Shown here: positions 21,882 to 36,936 of the stretch, in pieces | Layout: the number at the start of each line of letters is the position of its first letter | How positions within the stretch are numbered: the first letter of the stretch is position 1 | Assembly: GCA_903813345.2 (NCBI GenBank) | Contig: CAIIXF020000006.1 | Location: forward strand, 37,661,936-37,725,935 | Length of the DNA: 64,000 bases | Reading direction: 5' to 3' | DNA from: Owenia fusiformis | Taxonomy: Eukaryota > Annelida > Polychaeta > Sabellida > Oweniidae | Notes under the pieces: model-generated | What the model saw: the letters and a program-made list of their open reading frames with translations, nothing else | What the model was told of the DNA's origin: nothing | Database searches by the model: none | Translations under genes and position numbers: made by a program

Positions 21882-22745
21882 CTATGTTGTAGTTGGAGTC
21901 CACTTCTCTTTCCTCCGCAGCCAGAGCCAACGTGAGCATGACTCTGCTGTGGCACCAATATCCTTAACGGCTTTCCTAAGATGGCTGGACCGTATTCCCA
22001 GGTCCTTCAACATGTGGTGTAAGGAGGCAGCTGGAAAGCCTCTGCAACCTACTTCAACTGCATGATGTCTGCAATTCCACCCTCTGGATTTTGCTTCGTC
22101 TACTAGGTCTTGGTAACGGGCAATCTTCAGTTGGTGAGATACCTCTATTCTCTCCTCACTAGGTACAGTAAGTTCTATCACAAGGATGGTTTTGCTGTTT
22201 CTAGATAGAAGCACCATATCTGGTCTCTGTGTGGTCACTACGATATCTTGGGGAAACACTAGCTTTCTCCTGATGTCAACTTGGAGATCCCAGTCAGATG
22301 CTTTAGATAGGGTGGAAGGGGGTTCGGTGATCGTCTTCTGCTTGGATGACTTAGCCTGGCCTTCCTTTCTGAATTCTATGAATCTAGGCTTGGTTGAGAC
22401 CTTCTGCTGATTGGCTTCAAGCCTTTCCCTATCAACCCATTTGGCAATTTCCTCAAGCACTTTGTCGTGGCGCCACCGGTAACGACCTTCTGCTAGTGCT
22501 TTCGTGCACCCACTCAGGATATGTGAGAGAGAACAGTGTGCTGCAAGACATTGCGGGCAGTTTGATGTTTCCTCTTTTCCCCAAGTTCTCAAGTTGGTTG
22601 GAGATGGCAAAAGATCAGTGAATGCTCTGAGAAGGAAGCTGAGACGCCCATGGTCAACAGACCAAAGATCTCTCCAGCCTAGTGATCGATCCCGTATGGA
22701 GTCCCACATATGTATTACATGTAAATCTATATTAGGAAGACATCA
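21882..22745 (-). pseudogene. C-terminus of a non-LTR retrotransposon protein (zinc knuckle + restriction-like endonuclease)
   Basis: The 275-codon frame has a CCHC knuckle C-x2-C-x8-H-x4-C (Cys51, Cys54, His63, Cys68). It is followed by RPDMVLL and VIELTVPSE, giving PD-x14-E (Pro163-Asp164 and Glu179). This spacing matches the PD-x12-14-D/E restriction-like endonuclease that follows the knuckle in R2/R4/NeSL-type retrotransposons. In-frame codons continue upstream of the first Met to about 22745, where a stop closes the frame, so the reverse transcriptase is missing: ordinary 5' truncation. About 300 bp beyond the stop (21552-21881) is probably the element's 3' tail. The Academ-like composite begins only 26 bp upstream. 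Confidence 0.75.
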
Positions 22746-22771
22746 TCCTGATTGGTCAAACAATTAGTATA

Positions 22772-23623
22772 GTAGGAACAAGGGGTTCCCATGCACCCAT
22801 AAGGTGTGAATAAGTTACATACATTTTTGTAATCCCTAGGGTGTCTATTTAATGAATTCATTTGTTAACATTGCCAACTAATGTCCCATAGTACTTTTAT
22901 GCGGCATTCCGTTACCATGGTTACGCATCTTTAGACATCTTACCTTGGTATCTTAAATCATTTGTAGCTCTGTCATTATTTGGTCTATAGAAATGATACT
23001 GGTACCAAATTAAACCTCATTAAATTTCCAATAAATTTCCGATATTCAATTATGCAAATTATCTAATTTGCATAAATTATGACGTCATCAATCTATTTTT
23101 GGTTCAGAATTTCCAACTATAGCAAGGTATCTATTAGAACTGAGGCCGTATGGCAAAATTTCTGAAAGGTTTTGTCCTTTATTCTATTAGTAGAAGGTAT
23201 AAGCAACATAAAAGTGAAAACAGATTCAAAATTGAATCAGTATTACGAAAGTTATGTAACTTTCGAGGCAGCTATCGTGAATGTCATTATTTGACAATAA
23301 TATACTGTACATACGTCTTACCTTGGAGTCTTGAATCAATGTAGCTTCGCCATTATTTGGTCTATAGAGATGATATTGGTATCTGATTAAACCTTATTAA
23401 ATTTACTATATGGTTACAATATTCAGTTATTCAAATTAGCTAATTTGCATTAATTGTGACGTCATCAATCCATTTTTGGTTCAGAATATCCAAAGTAGGA
23501 ACAAGGGGTTCCCATGCACCCATAAGATGTGAATAAGTCACATACATTTTTGTAATCCCTAGGGTGTCTATTTAATGAATTCATTTGTTAACATTGCCAA
23601 CTAATGTCCCATAGTACTTTTAT
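22772..23623. repeat. 5' terminal region of the composite with an internal copy of the terminus
   Basis: The outermost ~129 bp (22772-22900) recur as a direct repeat at 23495-23623. Between them, a ~190-bp unit containing TATTTGGTCTATAGA, GCTAATTTGCAT-like palindromes, GACGTCATCAAT and TTTTTGGTTCAGAAT also occurs twice (22934-23127 and 23311-23497). The element's own 3' TIR lacks the inner copy: it runs from GACGTC straight to GGCCATCTTGG. The extra block therefore looks like a relative's terminus inserted or copied into this end. Confidence 0.8.
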
Positions 23624-24317
23624 GGCGGCCATTTTGTCGGCCATCTTGAAATTCTAGCGAAAATTTTAATCTGTCATAACTTTTGATCCAGACGTGGTAG
23701 AACATTGTGTGAACCCATTTTTCTGACTAATTTTGGGTCAAGCAATCCATTTACCCATTCTTTTTTACCTATACATGTGTCTATATCAACAAAACCTACT
23801 TTATTGATCAAAAATATCAATTCACGCATTGTAAATCCATGTTTAAATATAGTAAAATTAGTTTGTTTTTCTTTTAAGCAGCTTTCCATATTCTAGGACA
23901 TCCCTAGAAGTATAAAACCCATTGAACTTATTGTGAAAGAGATTATTAAATGCTTGCAAATAATTTTACATGATAACATTGAGTGTATTAAGTTAACTGT
24001 TGTGATGAAAGAAATGGCTGTAATGGTTAAGAAAATATGTGTAATATTTAAGAGAGTCTAAAACAAATATTACATTTAGAATTATCCATTGTTATGTTAA
24101 CTCCTGTAATTTATAATTTGAAGGTCTTAATAGATACTTGTATATGGGAATTCTTCTTTTGTTAGGCCTAATAATTTTTCCTTTTGTTTATAGTTGTTGG
24201 GGAGGGGGTACATAAAAAATTTATGCTATAAATATTTTCAGGTCCTGAAGAATACTGGATGTGATAATGGGTAGTAATTTAGTGTGACAGCTCAACATTA
24301 GTAACTTATAAATAACT

Positions 24318-27300
24318 ATGGCAAGTAAGAAACGCAAACATTCAAATGAATGTTCACGTGCATGTGAAAAATGCATTCTGCACTTTGACAATATCACACC
24401 GGGTGACTTCATATCTCTGTCTCAAGCAAGGGGAAATGCAGATGACAAACTGTCCCAGCTTAATGATATTAAAGCAAAACGACTTTTGGAGCCAGTTACA
24501 TCTCCATATAGAATGGCAGAGGCAGGTTCTAAACTCCCATGCACTCTTGAAAATTTAGACTTATCAACCACAGGTTATCATAGAGGCTGCTACCAAAGGT
24601 TCACAGGCAACCTTAATCGCTTAAAAAACTCCACTGAATCTGGAGAACCTTCAGAAAATACCTCCTTAAGATCACCTCGTAAGCCAGCTGTTTCCTCTGC
24701 AGTTCAGCCATTTCCACCTGAGTGTATTTTCTGTGATAAAAGTGAAGTGAAGGTTTCTGGTAAAACTGAAAGGTGCAATAAATTTGCAGTGTACAAACAT
24801 AGTGATGGCATGAAGAGTAAACACAATCAAGATCCATCCTGGAAGCAAATCCAGACAATGGCCTTGGAACTTGGAAATAACCACCTCTATCGTAAAGTTA
24901 AAGATGAAGATCTTTTTGCCAGAGAGGCTCAGTTTCACTGGTCATGTCGAAACAAATTTTCTAATGCTCATAGTAAATTAAAGCAGAGTAAAAGTGAAAG
25001 TGAAGTATTGGACTCTGAATGGCATAACAAGCGTGCAGCTCACCAGAAAGCTTTTACTGAAGTTTTAAATGTTATACAAGACAGAGTGGTTAATAAAATG
25101 GAAGTGGTAGAGCTTTCCCATCTCAGGAAAGTATACATTGATGATCTTGAGGGTCAGGGCTTCCCAAATCCAAACTTCAGAGCTGAAAAACTGAAAACCC
25201 GCCTTGAAGAACACAGTATATACCAGGACATCGGGTTTTCAAAAGTAAATCCAGGTGATAAAGGTTGTCTTAGCTACAATTTGGTATACAACAGAAGAAT
25301 ATCTGTACCAGACGCCATTTCTCGTGCATTCCAACTAGGCTCCAGTGATATACATCAAGATGTAGCCATTGGTCTCAGAGAAATAATAATGAAGTCATTC
25401 CATAAAGTGAAAGAATTGCCTTGGCCTCCTACAGCTGAAGACCTCAACCTGGTTTCCATACCTCCTGAATTGATGACATTTCTAAACTATGTAATAGCAG
25501 GAGAAATAAACATGGATAACAATGAGAAAACCAAACGGTTAATCCTATCTATTGGGCAGGTACTGAACTTTTGCTTCCCTTCTTTTGTCCTAGATTTACA
25601 AATGTTAGTTCCGTGGGTTGATATCATTCATTGGGGATTGTTTTTCTTTGTGTTTTCCAAATGTTGCCCCCTGTGTTTTCTGTCAATAAGAACTATATTC
25701 TTGATGCAGGATAGCCATGTATTTGTTATGTAATGTTACCCTTTGTTCATGATATGATTATTTGTTCTTCCTAGGACATCTGCCGTGCGGCCACGAAAGG
25801 AGAATGGAAGTTACCTAAGCACATTCTTCTTTGCACCACTGTCAGACATCTGTACCGAAGTAAACAGCTCACCAATATACTGAGCAGATTAGGCCATTGC
25901 GAAACATATGATTTCAGTTTAGAGTTGGAAACTGCGTTGGCAAAGGCGCTTGATGAGGTTTCGACGTCTATTACTCCTCAGATAATTACTGGGGAAGGAA
26001 ATGCTGTGTTCCACGTTGAATGGGACAATTTAAATAAGATCACTACAAATTTCCACGGATCCAATGTTGTCAATAGCGCTGGGGGGATCATGATTCAAGA
26101 AATAAAACCTGGATTTGAAGTCACTAACCAAGACCGAAAGCTCCCGATTTATGAAAGGACTAAGAGTCGATCCAACAAGATAGATACTCCTGAGACATTG
26201 GCTCCGGTTCACATATACACTCGCATAGGACCAAAATTTCCAGAAGGGTCTGTTTTCCAGCCATCAGTAGAGAACAATGTCATAAATGCATCTACTATGC
26301 AAGAATACCGGGTGTGGCTACTTGCACGGGTAATTGGAAGCAGTAGTAACAAACAGCTTGTACCAGCATTTGGTGGTTTTGTCTCTGCCATTGGTGTTGC
26401 CCCTCCACGGAAGTCTACCATAGAGTATTTCACGCCAATAAACCAGCCCTTTACTGAATATTCAGTTATCAAAGAAGCCTTACGCAGATCTGAGGAAGCG
26501 ACCGCAGAAGTAGGCCAAGAATATGTCATAAGTACCTTTGACCTTGGAGGATGCATGAAGGCGTTGCCATTAATTTGGAAGTATCCAGAACAATACTCCA
26601 AGCATGTGATAATACCAGGAGCATTCCACACAGGTATGAACTACATCTCCATGATAACCTCACGTAAATGTGCTGGATCTGGGCATGGCGAAATATTAAT
26701 TGAGGCGGGACTAGTAACAAATGGTTGCCTTAACAGTGTACTGAAGGGAAAAGCTTATGCCAAGGCTTTGTTTTGTCTAAAAACGGTGAGTGAATCTATG
26801 GAAAGGCTCCTACTTGAGAAGTTTGTTGAAGAGGAGATCAATGAAGTAGAAGATCCTATTACTCTGATCAACATTGTTCAAGACTGTAGTCGTGAAAACC
26901 TTGACAATGCCCTGAAGGATAATGCCACAATACAACTTCTTGATAACTACATGACCTATGAACACAAGGTGAGATCTGGCCACCTTGGAAAAACAGCAAT
27001 GTTTTGGCTCAGCGTGATAGATCAGGCTCGTTTGGTAATGATGCTGCTTTACTCAGTGAAGACTAATAACTTTGAACTGTTCCATAAATGCAACCGGGAT
27101 ATGGCTGACCTGTTTTTTGCGTTTGATGGACCAAATTATTCAAGGTAATTAGCATTTCTTAAATAAACAAAAGTCAGAACATTTATGTTATAACACCAAA
27201 TAAGTAGCAATACTATTTAGTATATTTAAAATATATGTATGTTCACAAACACAGGTATTTAGCATGGTTAGATGCCTTCCTGCTGAATATAGACAGATCA

Positions 27301-29762
27301 CATCCTGGGGCCAAGGATCTCCTTGAGAATGGGGGAATAGCTGTTACACGATCACTTATTCCTGGTGCACGTAGTGCTGTCGACAAAACCATGGAAGAGA
27401 CATTCATGAAGTTTGCCAAGTCATCAGGTGGGTACAGAACATTTACCAGTGAATATATATATACTAACTTTGGGTTAACAATCAAAAATATGAATTGTAA
27501 AATGCATTACATATTTTGTTCTATCTAGGTGGATTTGTGGGTCTATTCTCAATGTTTGGTGCTTACCAGCGCTGGTGCCGAACCTCCACTACAAGAATCC
27601 AGTACTTTGAGAAGATGTTAGAGATGTGTAGCATTAATGACGACACAGAGACTCCAAAGGCAGGGAGACACCGAGAGCTAGAACGAGCTGAAATAAAGAA
27701 GTCAGAAGATGCTGTCCAGATGACCATAACAGCTATTCGCAACTTCACCAATCCATTCAATCTTACTGACAAAGACCATCTTTTCAGTTTGGCCTCAGGT
27801 GCTCCTGTCCCTCATGAAGCAGAATTTGATGTTCTCTGTGCTGAGAAAGCTGGTAGAGCTGCAAAGGAAGCTTTCACAAGAGATAGACTTTCCAGTGGTA
27901 AAGCAGAATCACTCTTTTTCGAGCCAATCAAGAGGCTAAAGTTAAAGACTATGGAAGCATCAAACAAGACAGTTAAGCTTACTGGATCACAAGGGAAGGT
28001 ATGAATGTACTATAATATGGATTGGTTAGATTTTGTAGTAATTTTAGAAAAGCTTTCATTTTTCTTTTTTTTCATTTTCATTTCAGGTTGTTCAGTACCA
28101 GGAACAAAGTGACTTAGCTTTCCTTCTTCTTGTCAAGTCTCAGCAGCTGGAAGAACCTATTGATCTGAACAAGATCATGGAATACTGCCTCACACCAGTA
28201 CCATTCTGTCTTGGCACACCTGATGGCTACTTCAGCAAGACAAATAAGGCTGCTTTGTTACATTACCTGATGGAAGACATTCCTGAAGAAGGATCTTATC
28301 CAGAGGATGCGATACTCATCCAAGATGGTAATGCACTATTCCACACCTTGACCAACATACCACCAACATTCGGTGAGATCTGCCTCCAAGTACTTGACCA
28401 AATGGTTGCCAAGAAGAACTTTGTATTTTCCACAGACTGTTATGTCTCGGACTCAATCAAAGCTCAGGAGCGATTGCGCAGGGGTACCTCTCAGAAATAC
28501 ATTGTTGATGGGCCAGCAACAAGAAAACCAACTGATTTCAAATTGTTCCTCTCCAATGATGAAAACAAAATACAGCTGTGTCACCTATTACTTCAGGTAT
28601 GGAAGAGTAAGGAGGCTTTGTCTAGGCTCCAGAAGTCCAACATTGCCATGGCTGTGGTCGAGGGAAAGACATACAAACTGAGTGTGGATTCATCATCTGG
28701 TCAGGTACAGAAGCATGTTGAAGTTATAGGTATGACATCACTTGATTTTTGCAATTAAACACTCACATTTTAATTAACTCGATTAATTTGTTGATTACCA
28801 GGTAACTGCATCTGAGATAGAAGAGCTACAATCCAGTCAAGAAGAGACAGATACCCGGGTTGTTCTTTACCTCATTTATGCAGCCAAGATAGGGTTCAAG
28901 AGGAGTGTTGTAAGAACACCTGATACAGACATATTCTTCATACTTCTATACCATGCACATACAATCCCACTCACAGTATATGTTGATATTGGCACAGGCA
29001 AGAGCCGGCAGCTTATCAATGTCAGTGAACTTGCAGAGTCTATGGGACCAGGACATTGCTCAATGCTTCTTGGACTATATGTATATACTGGAGAAGATGT
29101 TACAAGTGCTTTCAAGGGTAAAGGAAAAGTAGGGCCAATGAAGAAGCTTCAAAAGCATGCAAAGTTTCAGTCAGCTTTCAGGTAAGATATACAAAAGGTT
29201 ATCAAATAACAACTGCATAATTTCACTGAAAATCTCTATTTTATATCTGCTTTCCCTTCTTCATTTCTTTATTTCCAGATCCCTTGGTGATGACTGGTGC
29301 ATAACAGCTAACGATCTTGTTAATGAGCTTGAGGCATTCACATGTATAATGTATGGCTATCCACGCGAGACATCTATCAATGTGGTCCGTGCAAACATGC
29401 TGAAGAAGATGGTGGGTATAGATACTCAGCTGACCATCAAGTCAAAGGTTGACCTTTCAAAGTTGCCCCCCTGTAAAGACAGCTTGGTACCTCATGTCCA
29501 ACGCGTGAACCATCGCATCTGCAATTACAAGCGGGCAAACCAGCCGACATTCACTGTTCCAAAGCCATATGATTCCGACCAAGGTTGGCAAAAAACAGCA
29601 ACTGGATTCCTGGAGCCTATTTGGTCATGTGGATCTATCCTACCAAGTTCATTGGTTGATCTCATATCCGATGCAGATGCACCTGAGGATGATGAACAAG
29701 ATGATGACAGCACTGAAATTGAACTGGACTTTGATGCAATTTTCAGTGATGACGATGACTAG
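24318..29762 (+). CDS. Academ-like transposase fused to an XPG/PIN-like nuclease (1578 aa, 7 exons)
   Basis: Exons: 24318-25559, 25775-27144, 27255-27427, 27529-27998, 28087-28704, 28802-29181, 29279-29762; all junctions are GT-AG and the frame closes exactly. Residues 1-215 hold two zinc modules of near-equal spacing, C16-x2-C19...H88-x2-C91 and C136-x2-C139...H207-x2-C210. The middle part has VEWDNLN (Asp498), STFDLGG (Asp670) and LIEAGL (Glu724), proposed DDE residues, around PGAFHTGMNY. The C-terminal third has QDGNALFH (Asp1165), DSIKAQERLRRG, EETDTR (1305-1310) and PDTD (1331-1334), the acidic pattern of FEN1/XPG/PIN nucleases, and ends in an acidic tail. Academ elements are recalled to join a transposase with an XPG nuclease; that name is inference. 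No frame damage is seen. Confidence 0.8.
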
Positions 29763-29936
29763 CTATTCAGCATTACCTATACTACTTTGAGTGATATCAA
29801 TGAATAGACCAATAGAAGCTGACATGAAAGTACTTTCATAACAAAGACAATGGTAGTTTAACGCTAGAATATGGTAACTGACCATAGGACTCTTATATTA
29901 AAAGCATCTTGGTGAATAATAAGATTAGGGATGGAG

Positions 29937-30566
29937 GAATCTCAAAAACACCTTTCTCAAAGTGAAGTGGTCTTTATTTTGTTGTGTTTTACCAAATGAG
30001 TCATTATTTTATTTTTTATAATTTTGAAATTTTATTTTACATATTTATATACTCAGGGAGTTTTCTTCTGAAATAAACTTATGTGAGTAATATGTGCCAA
30101 AACTGGTTAATGATGAATCCCAAAACACATCGCTAAACTGGGGTGGTCATTATTTTATTGTACTTAACCAAATGAGTCATTATTTTATTTCATATAATTT
30201 TGTAATATTGTATTACATTTTTATATACAAAGGTAATATGTATGTAATATGTGCCAAAACTGATTAATGATGAATCTTAAAAACACCTCGCTGAACAGAG
30301 GTTATTATTTTATTGTATTTAACCAAATGAGTCATTATTTTATTTTACATGTATGCTGTGTATTACCTAATGATTCATTATTTTATTTTATATAATTTTG
30401 AAATGTTTTGTTACATATTTATATTCTCAAGAGTTGTCTTTTGAAATAAACTTATGTAAGTAATATGTGCCAAAACTGATTTATGGTGAATCTGAAAACA
30501 CTTCATTTAACTGAGGTGGTCTTTATTTTATTGTATTTAACCAAATTAGTCATATTTTATTTTATT
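29937..30566 (+). repeat. Tandem repeat in the transposon 3' tail (unit ~155-215 bp, 3.5 copies)
   Basis: Units begin near 29937, 30116, 30273 and 30489. Each has AACAC, TTTATTNTATTGTATTTAACC, AAATGAGTCATTATTTTATT and a TAATATGTGCCAAAACTG segment before the next unit. Several AATAAA hexamers (such as in GAAATAAACTTATG) lie in the units and could give poly(A) sites for the transposase transcript. Confidence 0.8.
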
Positions 30567-30741
30567 TTCAACAATTAACAGATATAATTTTATTTTTGTA
30601 TGTCTTAGAGACTTGCAATATAATTTTTTCATGTATGTGCAAAAATTGATCACATTGATTTTAAAATACAATGCTTGAAATAAACGATTTGATTTAAAAC
30701 AAGATATTACTGTCTTTAGCTTTATTGATAAGTAAAATATA

Positions 30742-31286
30742 CAATGTTAAATGGATTGCTTGACCCAAAATTAGTCAGAAAAATGGGTTCACACAATGTT
30801 CTACCACGTCTGGATCAAAAGTTATGACAGATTAAAATTTTCGCTAGGATTCCAAGATGGCCGACGTCACAATTAATGCAAATTAGCTAATTTGCATAAC
30901 TGAATATTGTAACCATATAGTAAATTTAATAAGGTTTAATCAGATACCAATATCATCTCTATAGACCAAATAATGGCGAAGCTACATTGATTCAAGACTC
31001 CAAGGTAGACGTATGTACAGTATATTATTGTCAAATAATGACATTCACGATAGCTGCCTCGAAAGTTACATAACTTTCGTAATACTGATTCAATTTTGAA
31101 TCTGTTTTCACTTTTATGTTGCTTATACCTTCTACTAATAGAATAAAGGACAAAACCTTTCAGAAATTTTGCCATACGGCCTCAGTTCTAATAGATACCT
31201 TGCTATAGTTGGAAATTCTGAACCAAAAATAGATTGATGACGTCATAATTTATGCAAATTAGATAATTTGCATAATTGAATATCGG
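30742..31286. repeat. 3' TIR of the full-length element, outer end missing
   Basis: Read on the minus strand this matches the 5' region from about 23038 to 23464 and 23635 to 23755 (ATTCAATTATGCAAATTATC, GAACTGAGGCCGTATGG, CAGACGTGGTAGAACATTG). It differs at more sites than the two long arms do. It ends at GATATCGG, where the inverted copy begins, so the terminal ~270 bp with GTAGGAACAAGG are absent. Confidence 0.8.
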
Positions 31287-34200
31287 AAAAGATGGTCTTT
31301 GTCAGTAAGATTGAATGGATTGGTGAAGTTGCGAATAGCTGTTATGGTCATCTGGACAGCATCTTCTGACTTCTTTATTTCAGCTCGTTCTAGCTCTCGG
31401 TGTCTCCCTGCCTTTGGAGTCTCTGTGTCGTCATTAATGCTACACATCTCTAACATCTTCTCAAAGTACTGGATTCTTGTAGTGGAGGTTCGGCACCAGC
31501 GCTGGTAAGCACCAAACATTGAGAATAGACCCACAAATCCACCTAGATAGAACAAAATATGTAATGCATTTTACAATTCATATTTTTGATTGTTAACCCA
31601 AAGTTAGTATATATATATTCACTGGTAAATGTTCTGTACCCACCTGATGACTTGGCAAACTTCATGAATGTCTCTTCCATGGTTTTGTCGACAGCACTAC
31701 GTGCACCAGGAATAAGTGATCGTGTAACAGCTATTCCCCCATTCTCAAGGAGATCCTTGGCCCCAGGATGTGATCTGTCTATATTCAGCAGGAAGGCATC
31801 TAACCATGCTAAATACCTGTGTTTGTGAACATACATATATTTTAAATATACTAAATAGTATTGCTACTTATTTGGTGTTATAACATAAATGTTCTGACTT
31901 TTGTTTATTTAAGAAATGCTAATTACCTTGAATAATTTGGTCCATCAAACGCAAAAAACAGGTCAGCCATATCCCGGTTGCATTTATGGAACAGTTCAAA
32001 GTTATTAGTCTTCACTGAGTAAAGCAGCATCATTACCAAACGAGCCTGATCTATCACGCTGAGCCAAAACATTGCTGTTTTTCCAAGGTGGCCAGATCTC
32101 ACCTTGTGTTCATAGGTCATGTAGTTATCAAGAAGTTGTATTGTGGCATTATCCTTCAGGGCATTGTCAAGGTTTTCACGACTACAGTCTTGAACAATGT
32201 TGATCAGAGTAATAGGATCTTCTACTTCATTGATCTCCTCTTCAACAAACTTCTCAAGTAGGAGCCTTTCCATAGATTCACTCACCGTTTTTAGACAAAA
32301 CAAAGCCTTGGCATAAGCTTTTCCCTTCAGTACACTGTTAAGGCAACCATTTGTTACTAGTCCCGCCTCAATTAATATTTCGCCATACCCAGATCCAGCA
32401 CATTTACGTGAGGTTATCATGGAGATGTAGTTCATACCTGTGTGGAATGCTCCTGGTATTATCACATGCTTGGAGTATTGTTCTGGATACTTCCAAATTA
32501 ATGGCAACGCCTTCATGCATCCTCCAAGGTCAAAGGTACTTATGACATATTCTTGGCCTACTTCTGCGGTCGCTTCCTCAGATCTGCGTAAGGCTTCTTT
32601 GATAACTGAATATTCAGTAAAGGGCTGGTTTATTTGCGTGAAATACTCTATGGTAGACTTCCGTGGAGGGGCAACACCAATGGCAGAGACAAAACCACCA
32701 AATGCTGGTACAAGCTGTTTGTTACTACTGCTTCCAATTACCCGTGCAAGTAGCCACACCCGGTATTCTTGCATAGTAGATGCATTTATGACATTGTTCT
32801 CTACTGATGGCTGGAAAACAGACCCTTCTGGAAATTTTGGTCCTATGCGAGTGTATATGTGAACCGGAGCCAATGTCTCAGGAGTATCTATCTTGTTGGA
32901 TCGACTCTTAGTCCTTTCATAAATCGGGAGCTTTCGGTCTTGGTTAGTGACTTCAAATCCAGGTTTTATTTCTTGAATCATGATCCCCCCAGCGCTATTG
33001 ACAACATTGGATCCGTGGAAATTTGTAGTGATCTTATTTAAATTGTCCCATTCAACGTGGAACACAGCATTTCCTTCCCCAGTAATTATCTGAGGAGTAA
33101 TAGACGTCGAAACCTCATCAAGCGCCTTTGCCAACGCAGTTTCCAACTCTAAACTGAAATCATATGTTTCGCAATGGCCTAATCTGCTCAGTATATTGGT
33201 GAGCTGTTTACTTCGGTACAGATGTCTGACAGTGGTGCAAAGAAGAATGTGCTTAGGTAACTTCCATTCTCCTTTCGTGGCCGCACGGCAGATGTCCTAG
33301 GAAGAACAAATAATCATATCATGAACAAAGGGTAACATTACATAACAAATACATGGCTATCCTGCATCAAGAATATAGTTCTTATTGACAGAAAACACGG
33401 GGGGCAACATTTGGAAAACACAAAGAAAAACAATCCCCAATGAATGATATCAACCCACGGAACTAACATTTGTAAATCTAGGACAAAAGAAGGGAAGCAA
33501 AAGTTCAGTACCTGCCCAATAGATAGGATTAACCGTTTGGTTTTCTCATTGTTATCCATGTTTATTTCTCCTGCTATTACATAGTTTAGAAATGTCATCA
33601 ATTCAGGAGGTATGGAAACCAGGTTGAGGTCTTCAGCTGTAGGAGGCCAAGGCAATTCTTTCACTTTATGGAATGACTTCATTATTATTTCTCTGAGACC
33701 AATGGCTACATCTTGATGTATATCACTGGAGCCTAGTTGGAATGCACGAGAAATGGCGTCTGGTACAGATATTCTTCTGTTGTATACCAAATTGTAGCTA
33801 AGACAACCTTTATCACCTGGATTTACTTTTGAAAACCCGATGTCCTGGTATATACTGTGTTCTTCAAGGCGGGTTTTCAGTTTTTCAGCTCTGAAGTTTG
33901 GATTTGGGAAGCCCTGACCCTCAAGATCATCAATGTATACTTTCCTGAGATGGGAAAGCTCTACCACTTCCATTTTATTAACCACTCTGTCTTGTATAAC
34001 ATTTAAAACTTCAGTAAAAGCTTTCTGGTGAGCTGCACGCTTGTTATGCCATTCAGAGTCCAATACTTCACTTTCACTTTTACTCTGCTTTAATTTACTA
34101 TGAGCATTAGAAAATTTGTTTCGACATGACCAGTGAAACTGAGCCTCTCTGGCAAAAAGATCTTCATCTTTAACTTTACGATAGAGGTGGTTATTTCCAA

Positions 34201-34753
34201 GTTCCAAGGCCATTGTCTGGATTTGCTTCCAGGATGGATCTTGATTGTGTTTACTCTTCATGCCATCACTATGTTTGTACACTGCAAATTTATTGCACCT
34301 TTCAGTTTTACCAGAAACCTTCACTTCACTTTTATCACAGAAAATACACTCAGGTGGAAATGGCTGAACTGCAGAGGAAACAGCTGGCTTACGAGGTGAT
34401 CTTAAGGAGGTATTTTCTGAAGGTTCTCCAGATTCAGTGGAGTTTTTTAAGCGATTAAGGTTGCCTGTGAACCTTTGGTAGCAGCCTCTATGATAACCTG
34501 TGGTTGATAAGTCTAAATTTTCAAGAGTGCATGGGAGTTTAGAACCTGCCTCTGCCATTCTATATGGAGATGTAACTGGCTCCAAAAGTCGTTTTGCTTT
34601 AATATCATTAAGCTGGGACAGTTTGTCATCTGCATTTCCCCTTGCTTGAGACAGAGATATGAAGTCACCCGGTGTGATATTGTCAAAGTGCAGAATGCAT
34701 TTTTCACATGCACGTGAACATTCATTTGAATGTTTGCGTTTCTTACTTGCCAT
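31287..34753 (-). pseudogene. Inverted truncated copy of the transposase gene (exons 1 to part of 4)
   Basis: Exon 1 (34753-33512), exon 2 (33296-31927), exon 3 (31816-31644) and the first 256 bp of exon 4 (31542-31287) mirror the intact gene. The copy ends inside exon 4 after ...DKDHLF and joins the 3' TIR. Observed coding differences are Leu to Pro in the intron-1 read-through, Pro to Gln in YFTPINQP, and His to Tyr in GSGHGEIL. It keeps the zinc modules and the DDE core but lacks the whole nuclease part. If spliced and translated it would give a shortened protein. Confidence 0.85.
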
Positions 34754-36298
34754 AGTTATTTATAAGTTACTAATGTTGAGCTGTCACACTAAATTACTAC
34801 CCATTATCACATCCAGTATTCTTCAGGACCTGAAAATATTTATAGCATAAATTTTTTATGTACCCCCTCCCCAACAACTATAAACAAAAGGAAAAATTAT
34901 TAGGCCTAACAAAAGAAGAATTCCCATATACAAGTATCTATTAAGACCTTCAAATTATAAATTACAGGAGTTAACATAACAATGGATAATTCTAAATGTA
35001 ATATTTGTTTTAGACTCTCTTAAATATTACACATATTTTCTTAACCATTACAGCCATTTCTTTCATCACAACAGTTAACTTAATACACTCAATGTTATCA
35101 TGTAAAATTATTTGCAAGCATTTAATAATCTCTTTCACAATAAGTTCAATGGGTTTTATACTTCTAGGGATGTCCTAGAATATGGAAAGCTGCTTAAAAG
35201 AAAAACAAACTAATTTTACTATATTTAAACATGGATTTACAATGCGTGAATTGATATTTTTGATCAATAAAGTAGGTTTTGTTGATATAGACACATGTAT
35301 AGGTAAAAAAGAATGGGTAAATGGATTGCTTGACCCAAAATTAGTCAGAAAAATGGGTTCACACAATGTTCTACCACGTCTGGATCAAAAGTTATGACAG
35401 ATTAAAATTTTCGCTAGAATTTCAAGATGGCCGACAAAATGGCCGCCATAAAAGTACTATGGGACATTAGTTGGCAATGTTAACAAATGAATTCATTAAA
35501 TAGACACCCTAGGGATTACAAAAATGTATGTGACTTATTCACATCTTATGGGTGCATGGGAACCCCTTGTTCCTACTTTGGATATTCTGAACCAAAAATG
35601 GATTGATGACGTCACAATTAATGCAAATTAGCTAATTTGAATAACTGAATATTGTAACCATATAGTAAATTTAATAAGGTTTAATCAGATACCAATATCA
35701 TCTCTATAGACCAAATAATGGCGAAGCTACATTGATTCAAGACTCCAAGGTAAGACGTATGTACAGTATATTATTGTCAAATAATGACATTCACGATAGC
35801 TGCCTCGAAAGTTACATAACTTTCGTAATACTGATTCAATTTTGAATCTGTTTTCACTTTTATGTTGCTTATACCTTCTACTAATAGAATAAAGGACAAA
35901 ACCTTTCAGAAATTTTGCCATACGGCCTCAGTTCTAATAGATACCTTGCTATAGTTGGAAATTCTGAACCAAAAATAGATTGATGACGTCATAATTTATG
36001 CAAATTAGATAATTTGCATAATTGAATATCGGAAATTTATTGGAAATTTAATGAGGTTTAATTTGGTACCAGTATCATTTCTATAGACCAAATAATGACA
36101 GAGCTACAAATGATTTAAGATACCAAGGTAAGATGTCTAAAGATGCGTAACCATGGTAACGGAATGCCGCATAAAAGTACTATGGGACATTAGTTGGCAA
36201 TGTTAACAAATGAATTCATTAAATAGACACCCTAGGGATTACAAAAATGTATGTAACTTATTCACACCTTATGGGTGCATGGGAACCCTTGTTCCTAC
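34754..36298. repeat. Inverted copy of the 5' terminal region
   Basis: Mirror image of 22772-24317, including the inner duplicate terminus (about 35447-35575) and the same A/T-rich leader. It supplies the right-hand end of the composite, so both outer ends derive from the element's 5' terminus. Confidence 0.85.
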
Positions 36299-36302
36299 TA
36301 TA

Positions 36303-36936
36303 CTAAATGGCGGTTTCAAAATTTTCGAAACACGCTTCGAATACTATTATGTTTTCTGGCGTTTTGATTTATATCAAAGCTTGTTAATTATTCTGGATAG
36401 GTGTAATGAATATGCTTACATCGATTCAAACATCACAGCGACGTGTTATTTTCGAAAACTGACTGGTGAGAAGTTGGGCAAACGGAGGTGGTACGTAGGA
36501 GACGCAAGCTCTGGAACTTCCCCCTCGTGTGATACCACTAAATCTCAAAGAATGGTGCGGTAGAAATGATAACGAGACCAACATTGTCAGATAACTAAAA
36601 TATTGTAATAGATTTCATTAATTTACCGACGGACGTTCAGCATTTTCAGATAAATAAAAAACCTGACATACACAAATGATGTGATTTTTCGTTGTTTGTT
36701 CTTTTAATGGTAATATTGTGATATATTATTCACCATTAACGCAATCCCACGCTGTATGTATGTCCCTAAGTTGTATCTTTTGACGTACAAGGAGACATGT
36801 GGGAAAACTGCATATGCAATCATTTAAAGAACATTTCTATGAATCAAAACATAAAAATATTTCTTTAATGACTAATCAACTCAGGTTGATGATGATTAAA
36901 ATATATTTGTCAACGTTTACAAAAAACGACAGTGGC
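36303..36936. other. Short intergenic stretch before astacin gene 1
   Basis: A plus-strand frame is open from inside the transposon end to 36563, and a GTGAGA donor-like site lies near 36463. No family is recognisable and no acceptor was identified, so I do not call a gene. The remainder is A/T-rich promoter-side sequence. Confidence 0.4.

Follow-up and report, generated by a model that had tools for sequence, protein, structure and literature searches.

A DNA transposon of Owenia fusiformis with a 5.0-kb right terminal inverted repeat, probably extended when the left half of the element was copied in inverted orientation

The window analysed here is a stretch of 64,000 nucleotides from the annelid Owenia fusiformis (assembly GCA_903813345.2, contig CAIIXF020000006.1, positions 37,661,936 to 37,725,935 of the forward strand), and it contains a mobile unit of 13,541 bp at 22765–36305. 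The unit is a single DNA transposon with long terminal inverted repeats (TIRs), the right one of which has grown from less than 1 kb to 5.0 kb. Between normal ends, the unit holds a complete and a truncated copy of the transposase gene, oriented towards each other. The right TIR was probably lengthened by inverted copying of the element's own left half, in a transposon of the AcademX type with an XPG/FEN-like nuclease and a 3-bp target duplication. This degree of confidence covers the identity of the unit and the copying route; the place of formation is treated as a separate variant, and the estimates for the two are not mutually exclusive.

Inverted arms of 5,003 nt were detected directly, and alignment extends them to their full ends at 22765–27785 (plus strand) and 31286–36305 (minus strand), with 3,500 nt between them. 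The left arm comprises the 5′ TIR and the 5′ part of the transposase gene, and the right arm is its inverted copy, with a complete element terminus at the outer end. The single-copy centre (27786–31285, plus strand) contains the 3′ part of the gene, the 3′ untranslated part, and a remnant of the 3′ TIR. Over about 5,020 bp, the arms differ by a one-base indel (G at 22782) and three substitutions (25672, 26436, and 26684), and the 99.9% identity of a 5-kb repeat excludes chance. The outer TIRs of the two arms agree at 726 of 726 aligned bases, with one gap. A first-pass annotation of the window had described a full element followed by an inverted copy of its first 5.0 kb, with arm identity near 99.9%; both statements are confirmed, and its count of one indel and three substitutions agrees with the alignment. 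Its description of the event as very young is borne out in part. Three substitutions in about 5,000 bp make a recent duplication likely, but gene conversion between the arms could also keep them alike, and youth is therefore not proven.

The insertion site sits within a common repeat, and the trinucleotide AAT is found on both sides of the unit, at 22762–22764 and 36306–36308. All six paralogous copies of the target repeat that were compared read through the insertion point uninterrupted and have one AAT there. These sites were hand-picked, four with matches on both flanks and two from right-flank matches only, and the flank search scored the best 40 of 660 candidates. Of 20 other family copies, 19 likewise have a 3-bp target duplication; among 420 mispairings of ends, 40 agree over 3 bp. 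The single pair of AAT and the uninterrupted paralogous sites indicate that one insertion explains both outer ends. The unit had been called a composite transposon, a term for two complete elements, each with both ends, that bracket other DNA. The name does not apply, as the right arm copies only 5.0 kb of the element and has a single end, and one target duplication encloses the whole unit.

The element terminus is TAGTATAGTAGGAACAAGG, and TAGTATA stands before GTAGGAACAAGG at the inspected family ends. The outer ends were originally placed at 22772 and 36298 with TATA as flanking DNA, but the true ends lie 7 bases further outward on each side, at 22765 and 36305, and TATA belongs to the element's own terminus. 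TATA was also considered as the target duplication and rejected, because TAGTATA is constant at these ends and the 3-bp duplication sits outside it. The TIR common to the family copies is about 727 bp long (22765–23491, plus strand; blastn identity of 97.3–98.1% to the copies L035–L037). Each of the seven complete relatives is bounded by a single TIR present in opposite orientations, so both ends of the unit are of the ordinary kind. The suggestion that both outer ends are 5′ termini recognised singly is thus right in that they behave as element ends, but single-end recognition is not needed. With two complete and nearly identical ends, the unit should still be a substrate for the transposase and should be mobilisable.

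The original 3′ TIR is identified at 30748–31289 (minus strand). The element's own 3′ terminus had been reported as missing; its outermost 271 bp or so are indeed gone at the inner junction, but much of the 3′ TIR is kept, apart from the stretch that matches 23471–23635. About 271 bp short of the expected terminus, the 3′ TIR runs through GAAA into the inverted arm. The join had been placed at 31286/31287; its exact base is ambiguous since the 3′ TIR and the inverted arm overlap in a 4-bp microhomology (31286–31289). Random joins of the same sequences share at least 4 bases in 2.1% of cases. An internal direct copy of the element terminus (22771–22908), 97.1% identical over 140 bp, is located at 23494–23633 (plus strand) on the inner edge of the 5′ TIR, and its counterpart is missing from the 3′ TIR. 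The loss of that stretch from the 3′ TIR is possibly another microhomology deletion. A GGG in place of GGGG near the right end was considered as a trace of the original 3′ terminus and discarded; among the matches listed it is present at the right end of this unit only, and thus looks private and uninformative on origin.

Analysis of these features points to aborted gap repair, primed by the TIR, as the most likely origin. A break or an incompletely repaired gap would have occurred within the 3′ TIR, about 271 bp from its end. The stub of the outer TIR on the right flank would have invaded the matching 5′ TIR of a sister or homologous copy, for which the near-identical TIRs make homology available. 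Synthesis would then have run inward for 5.0 kb into exon 4, giving the copy that is observed. The new end would then have come free and been fused with the broken 3′ TIR at GAAA, where the junction is seen, and the old target duplication would have been kept throughout. Supporting points are the outer TIRs, which are more alike here than the 97.8–99.2% found within each of the seven relatives, and inverted arms of about 1.9 kb, 92–94% identical, that extend beyond the shared TIR in five of the seven complete relatives (L035 and L038–L041), although these arms may derive from one ancestral event.

Several points weigh against this account. Template switching at a replication fork would give an identical sequence outcome, and we infer the joining process from one junction with a 4-bp overlap. 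A genome search for other copies of the inner junction, as the first-pass annotation had proposed, was run and found none besides the window locus; a 30-base pattern spanning the junction has a single match in the assembly even when 3 mismatches are tolerated. With one junction, the insertion may have come before or after the duplication. An unduplicated copy with this coding region was not found in the assembly searches, which score the best candidates only, so that a missing match is not proof of absence. All six paralogous sites contain about 12 bases that are absent from the left flank in the window, at a distance of five bases from the insertion point; the gap may be repeat variation or a small deletion, and the model leaves it unexplained. 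One of the 20 family copies, L041, shows no matching 3-bp duplication. In two of the seven complete relatives (L036 and L037), the arms of about 1.9 kb are not the longest inverted self-match. The structure is also read from the assembly sequence alone.

The last point bears on an assembly or library artefact, since long near-perfect palindromes are a classic product of fold-back reads or misjoins. A fold-back would mirror the left flank too, whereas the right arm breaks off precisely at the terminus, beyond which the target repeat continues, and this makes such an artefact unlikely. Each arm also has its own differences, and overlap assemblers are not known to make joins on a 4-bp overlap. 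Taken together, an artefact is considered highly improbable. Two elements inserted head to head and later fused by deletion would likewise leave part of a second copy in inverted orientation, joined at a microhomology. Two unrelated target duplications would be expected in that case, but the two outer ends share a single AAT duplication, and the target repeat carries on from flank to flank in six of six paralogous sites. The arms are 99.9% alike, yet the searches found nothing else in the assembly that closely matches the coding region. Two insertions would need a chance 3-bp match, which occurs in roughly 1 in 10 mispaired ends, together with a coincident position in the repeat; this explanation is largely refuted and is regarded as extremely unlikely.

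A more serious variant, although still considered somewhat unlikely, is that the palindromic unit arose at a different locus and moved to this site whole, as a 13.5-kb transposon, by means of its two outer ends. It is consistent with the 3-bp duplication around the entire unit, with the insert-free paralogous sites, and with the fit of both ends to the family terminus. An element rearranged after its insertion here would leave the same duplication, however, and no donor or sister copy was found, the junction pattern being single in the assembly.

The intact transposase gene (24318–29762, plus strand) encodes a predicted protein of 1,578 amino acids. It was predicted by hand with GT-AG introns, has only the terminal stop, and comprises seven exons: 24318–25559, 25775–27144, 27255–27427, 27529–27998, 28087–28704, 28802–29181, and 29279–29762. 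The tblastn blocks of a relative at C1:24.56 Mb, which is about 70% identical, fit these exons. This relative has an in-frame stop inside an exon and is probably dead. More distant relatives in the assembly give 53 matches with identities down to 21%, many of them in long open frames. Examples such as L068, L069, and L072–L075 are single open frames of about 1,400–1,600 codons with the same nuclease motifs, and Pfam coverage of the six distant relatives scanned is minimal.

Alignment and a profile search place an XPG/FEN-like nuclease domain in exons 5 and 6 (28309–29130, plus strand; about residues 1160–1400). The alignment, A1, contains the window protein and seven of the eight relatives; L070 was excluded because its longest open frame has no nuclease region, and tblastn places that region elsewhere in the locus. 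The sequences of L071 and L072 are incomplete and extend beyond the stretch examined. Seven acidic positions are invariant in the eight aligned sequences (D16, D53, E157, D159, D183, D185, and D241 of A1), in an order and approximate spacing that we take to be those of FEN/XPG nucleases. As a candidate DDE/D transposase core, DN, TxD, and GxxH motifs are common to the window protein and all eight relatives. A profile of the domain against 177,635 distinct Protein Data Bank (PDB) sequences gives five matches, all to Exonuclease 1, with a best E of 0.025 and no stretch significant alone. The two Exonuclease 1 alignments shown contain two FEN motifs in order and a third, weak stretch out of order. 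Two results speak against the XPG/FEN-like assignment: the nuclease part alone has a sub-threshold Pfam match to PDDEXK_2 (E 0.023), which points elsewhere, and a single-sequence PDB search gives one unrelated weak match (E 0.26). Pfam searches with single exons and with the spliced protein return nothing above the cut-off, and L072 has a weak match to DUF6589 (E 1e-4), also below the cut-off. Single-sequence structure models reach a predicted local distance difference test score (pLDDT) of 43.9 for exon 6 and 33.0 for exon 2, which is too low for use.

As a measure of the family, the 498-Mb assembly contains 191 occurrences of a 28- or 29-base end pattern starting with the element terminus, 96 in forward and 95 in reverse orientation, while the reversed control pattern has none. 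If the ends pair, this amounts to about 95 copies. The seven complete relatives include five of 4.35–4.40 kb, one of 4.6 kb, and one of 8.4 kb, and the TIR pair within each is 97.8–99.2% identical over 720 bp. Three of them (L035–L037) were compared with the window element and have the TIR of about 727 bp in common with it, but no matching coding stretch. Two coding-region searches, in which all 2 and all 5 candidates were scored, respectively, matched the window locus, the relative on C1, and a 142-bp piece on C16, and revealed no other close copy of the transposase gene in the assembly. The other copies are accordingly read as non-autonomous, and the intact transposase may serve those with the same ends. 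With their inverted arms, the family copies that lack the transposase gene are themselves foldback-like. The centres of L035 and L037 give repetitive, minisatellite-like translations.

Family end pairs about 15 kb apart are found at C1:37172921–37187877, with a matching TAA duplication, and at C7:2142777–2158128; neither was matched by the coding searches. At C2:970579–980910, two family copies of near-equal length stand back to back, and their facing ends overlap by two bases (975718–975746 and 975745–975773), an arrangement like a tandem insertion or duplication. Beside the target repeat in the window, an open frame at 21882–22742 (minus strand) has a weak zf-RVT match below the cut-off and is perhaps the end of a retrotransposon without long terminal repeats. 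Three other places match this region at 98% over 388 bp.

The mirrored copy of the transposase gene (31259–34753, minus strand, from the reading of its frame) comprises exons 1–3 and part of exon 4. It ends at residue 1014, ahead of the nuclease domain. Its frame contains 1,014 amino acids from the arm and 8 read from the 3′ TIR before a stop, which would give a nuclease-less product of 1,022 amino acids. At residue 635 the truncated copy has Gln and departs from the relative on C1, which has Pro, whereas at residue 718 it has Tyr like the relative and the full copy differs with His. The two coding differences point in opposite ways and thus give no one-sided sign of selection.

By analogy with the Mu killer locus of maize, the unit could silence or repress the family from which it arose, acting through antisense or hairpin RNA or through the nuclease-less transposase of 1,022 amino acids, and could damp the mobility of the source gene and of copies with the same ends. 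The truncated frame, open to residue 1022 and without a nuclease, is consistent with this. The full gene still stands between the arms, however, unlike in Mu killer, and residues 635 and 718 do not favour selection on one side. The proposal is considered doubtful. A broader form is that the sole intact transposase source of a family of about 95 copies became, through one recent accident of repair, a symmetrical mobile unit with its full gene and a nuclease-less half gene facing it. It would be a "Mu killer" outside plants that has kept a working gene and could direct RNA or protein at itself and at the copies that depend on it. This reading also draws on the analogy, and it is put forward as quite improbable.

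The element, with its putative transposase core, fits an AcademX-like classification, assigned by description. The 3-bp target duplication, found around the window element as well as in the family copies, and the single large transposase with a C-terminal XPG/FEN-like nuclease are the features on which it is filed there. The nuclease of AcademX is presumably of the XPG type, and we know of no settled role in transposition for this added domain. In the open-access literature searched, no paper was found that joins Academ with XPG or DUF6589 with a transposon. The available part of one study gives AcademX target duplications of 3 or 4 bp and AcademH duplications of 9 or 10 bp, and ties them to the encoded nuclease or helicase (PMC10045372). 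The window element differs from AcademX in that half of its gene is duplicated in inverted orientation, over 5 kb.

Similar accidents are known. Galileo, a Drosophila element of the P superfamily, has copies that took internal transposase-coding sequence into their TIRs, for which the consulted sections of the source weigh gap repair, slippage, and template switching, in reasoning close to that applied here (PMC4168063). Like the window element, the extended Galileo copies stand between identical target duplications (PMC4168063). Galileo duplications are 7–8 bp long, as opposed to 3 bp here, which places the window element outside the P superfamily pattern. In Galileo copy 147, the TIRs include transposase sequence of at least 545 bp, against about 3 kb of exons in the window element, and the Galileo study found no functional copy (PMC4168063). 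The window case is unusually large, looks recent, and affects the only close copy of the gene found in the assembly. It is a well-defined and probably recent TIR extension, larger than the precedents found in the open-access literature searched.

Mu killer is the closest architectural analogue, although it belongs to a different superfamily. In both, a partial inverted duplication of the transposase gene lies between copies of one TIR. As described in the available part of the source, Mu killer is a MuDR derivative in which one TIR is present twice and part of mudrA is duplicated in inverted orientation, it silences its source element, and the promoter of its antisense transcripts lies within the locus (PMC3440606). 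Its centre could not be sequenced in that study, and the central region of MuDR appears to be absent from it (PMC3440606), whereas the unit in the window keeps a complete gene. Growth of TIRs through recruited coding sequence is thus already described for Galileo, and the origin of a silencing locus in an inverted duplication for Mu killer. In the present case, the junction, both ends, the target duplication, the insert-free paralogous sites, and the intact gene can all be read, and divergence between the arms is slight. If reads confirm the structure, it would provide a clean case for the beginnings of foldback elements and of transposon-derived silencers.
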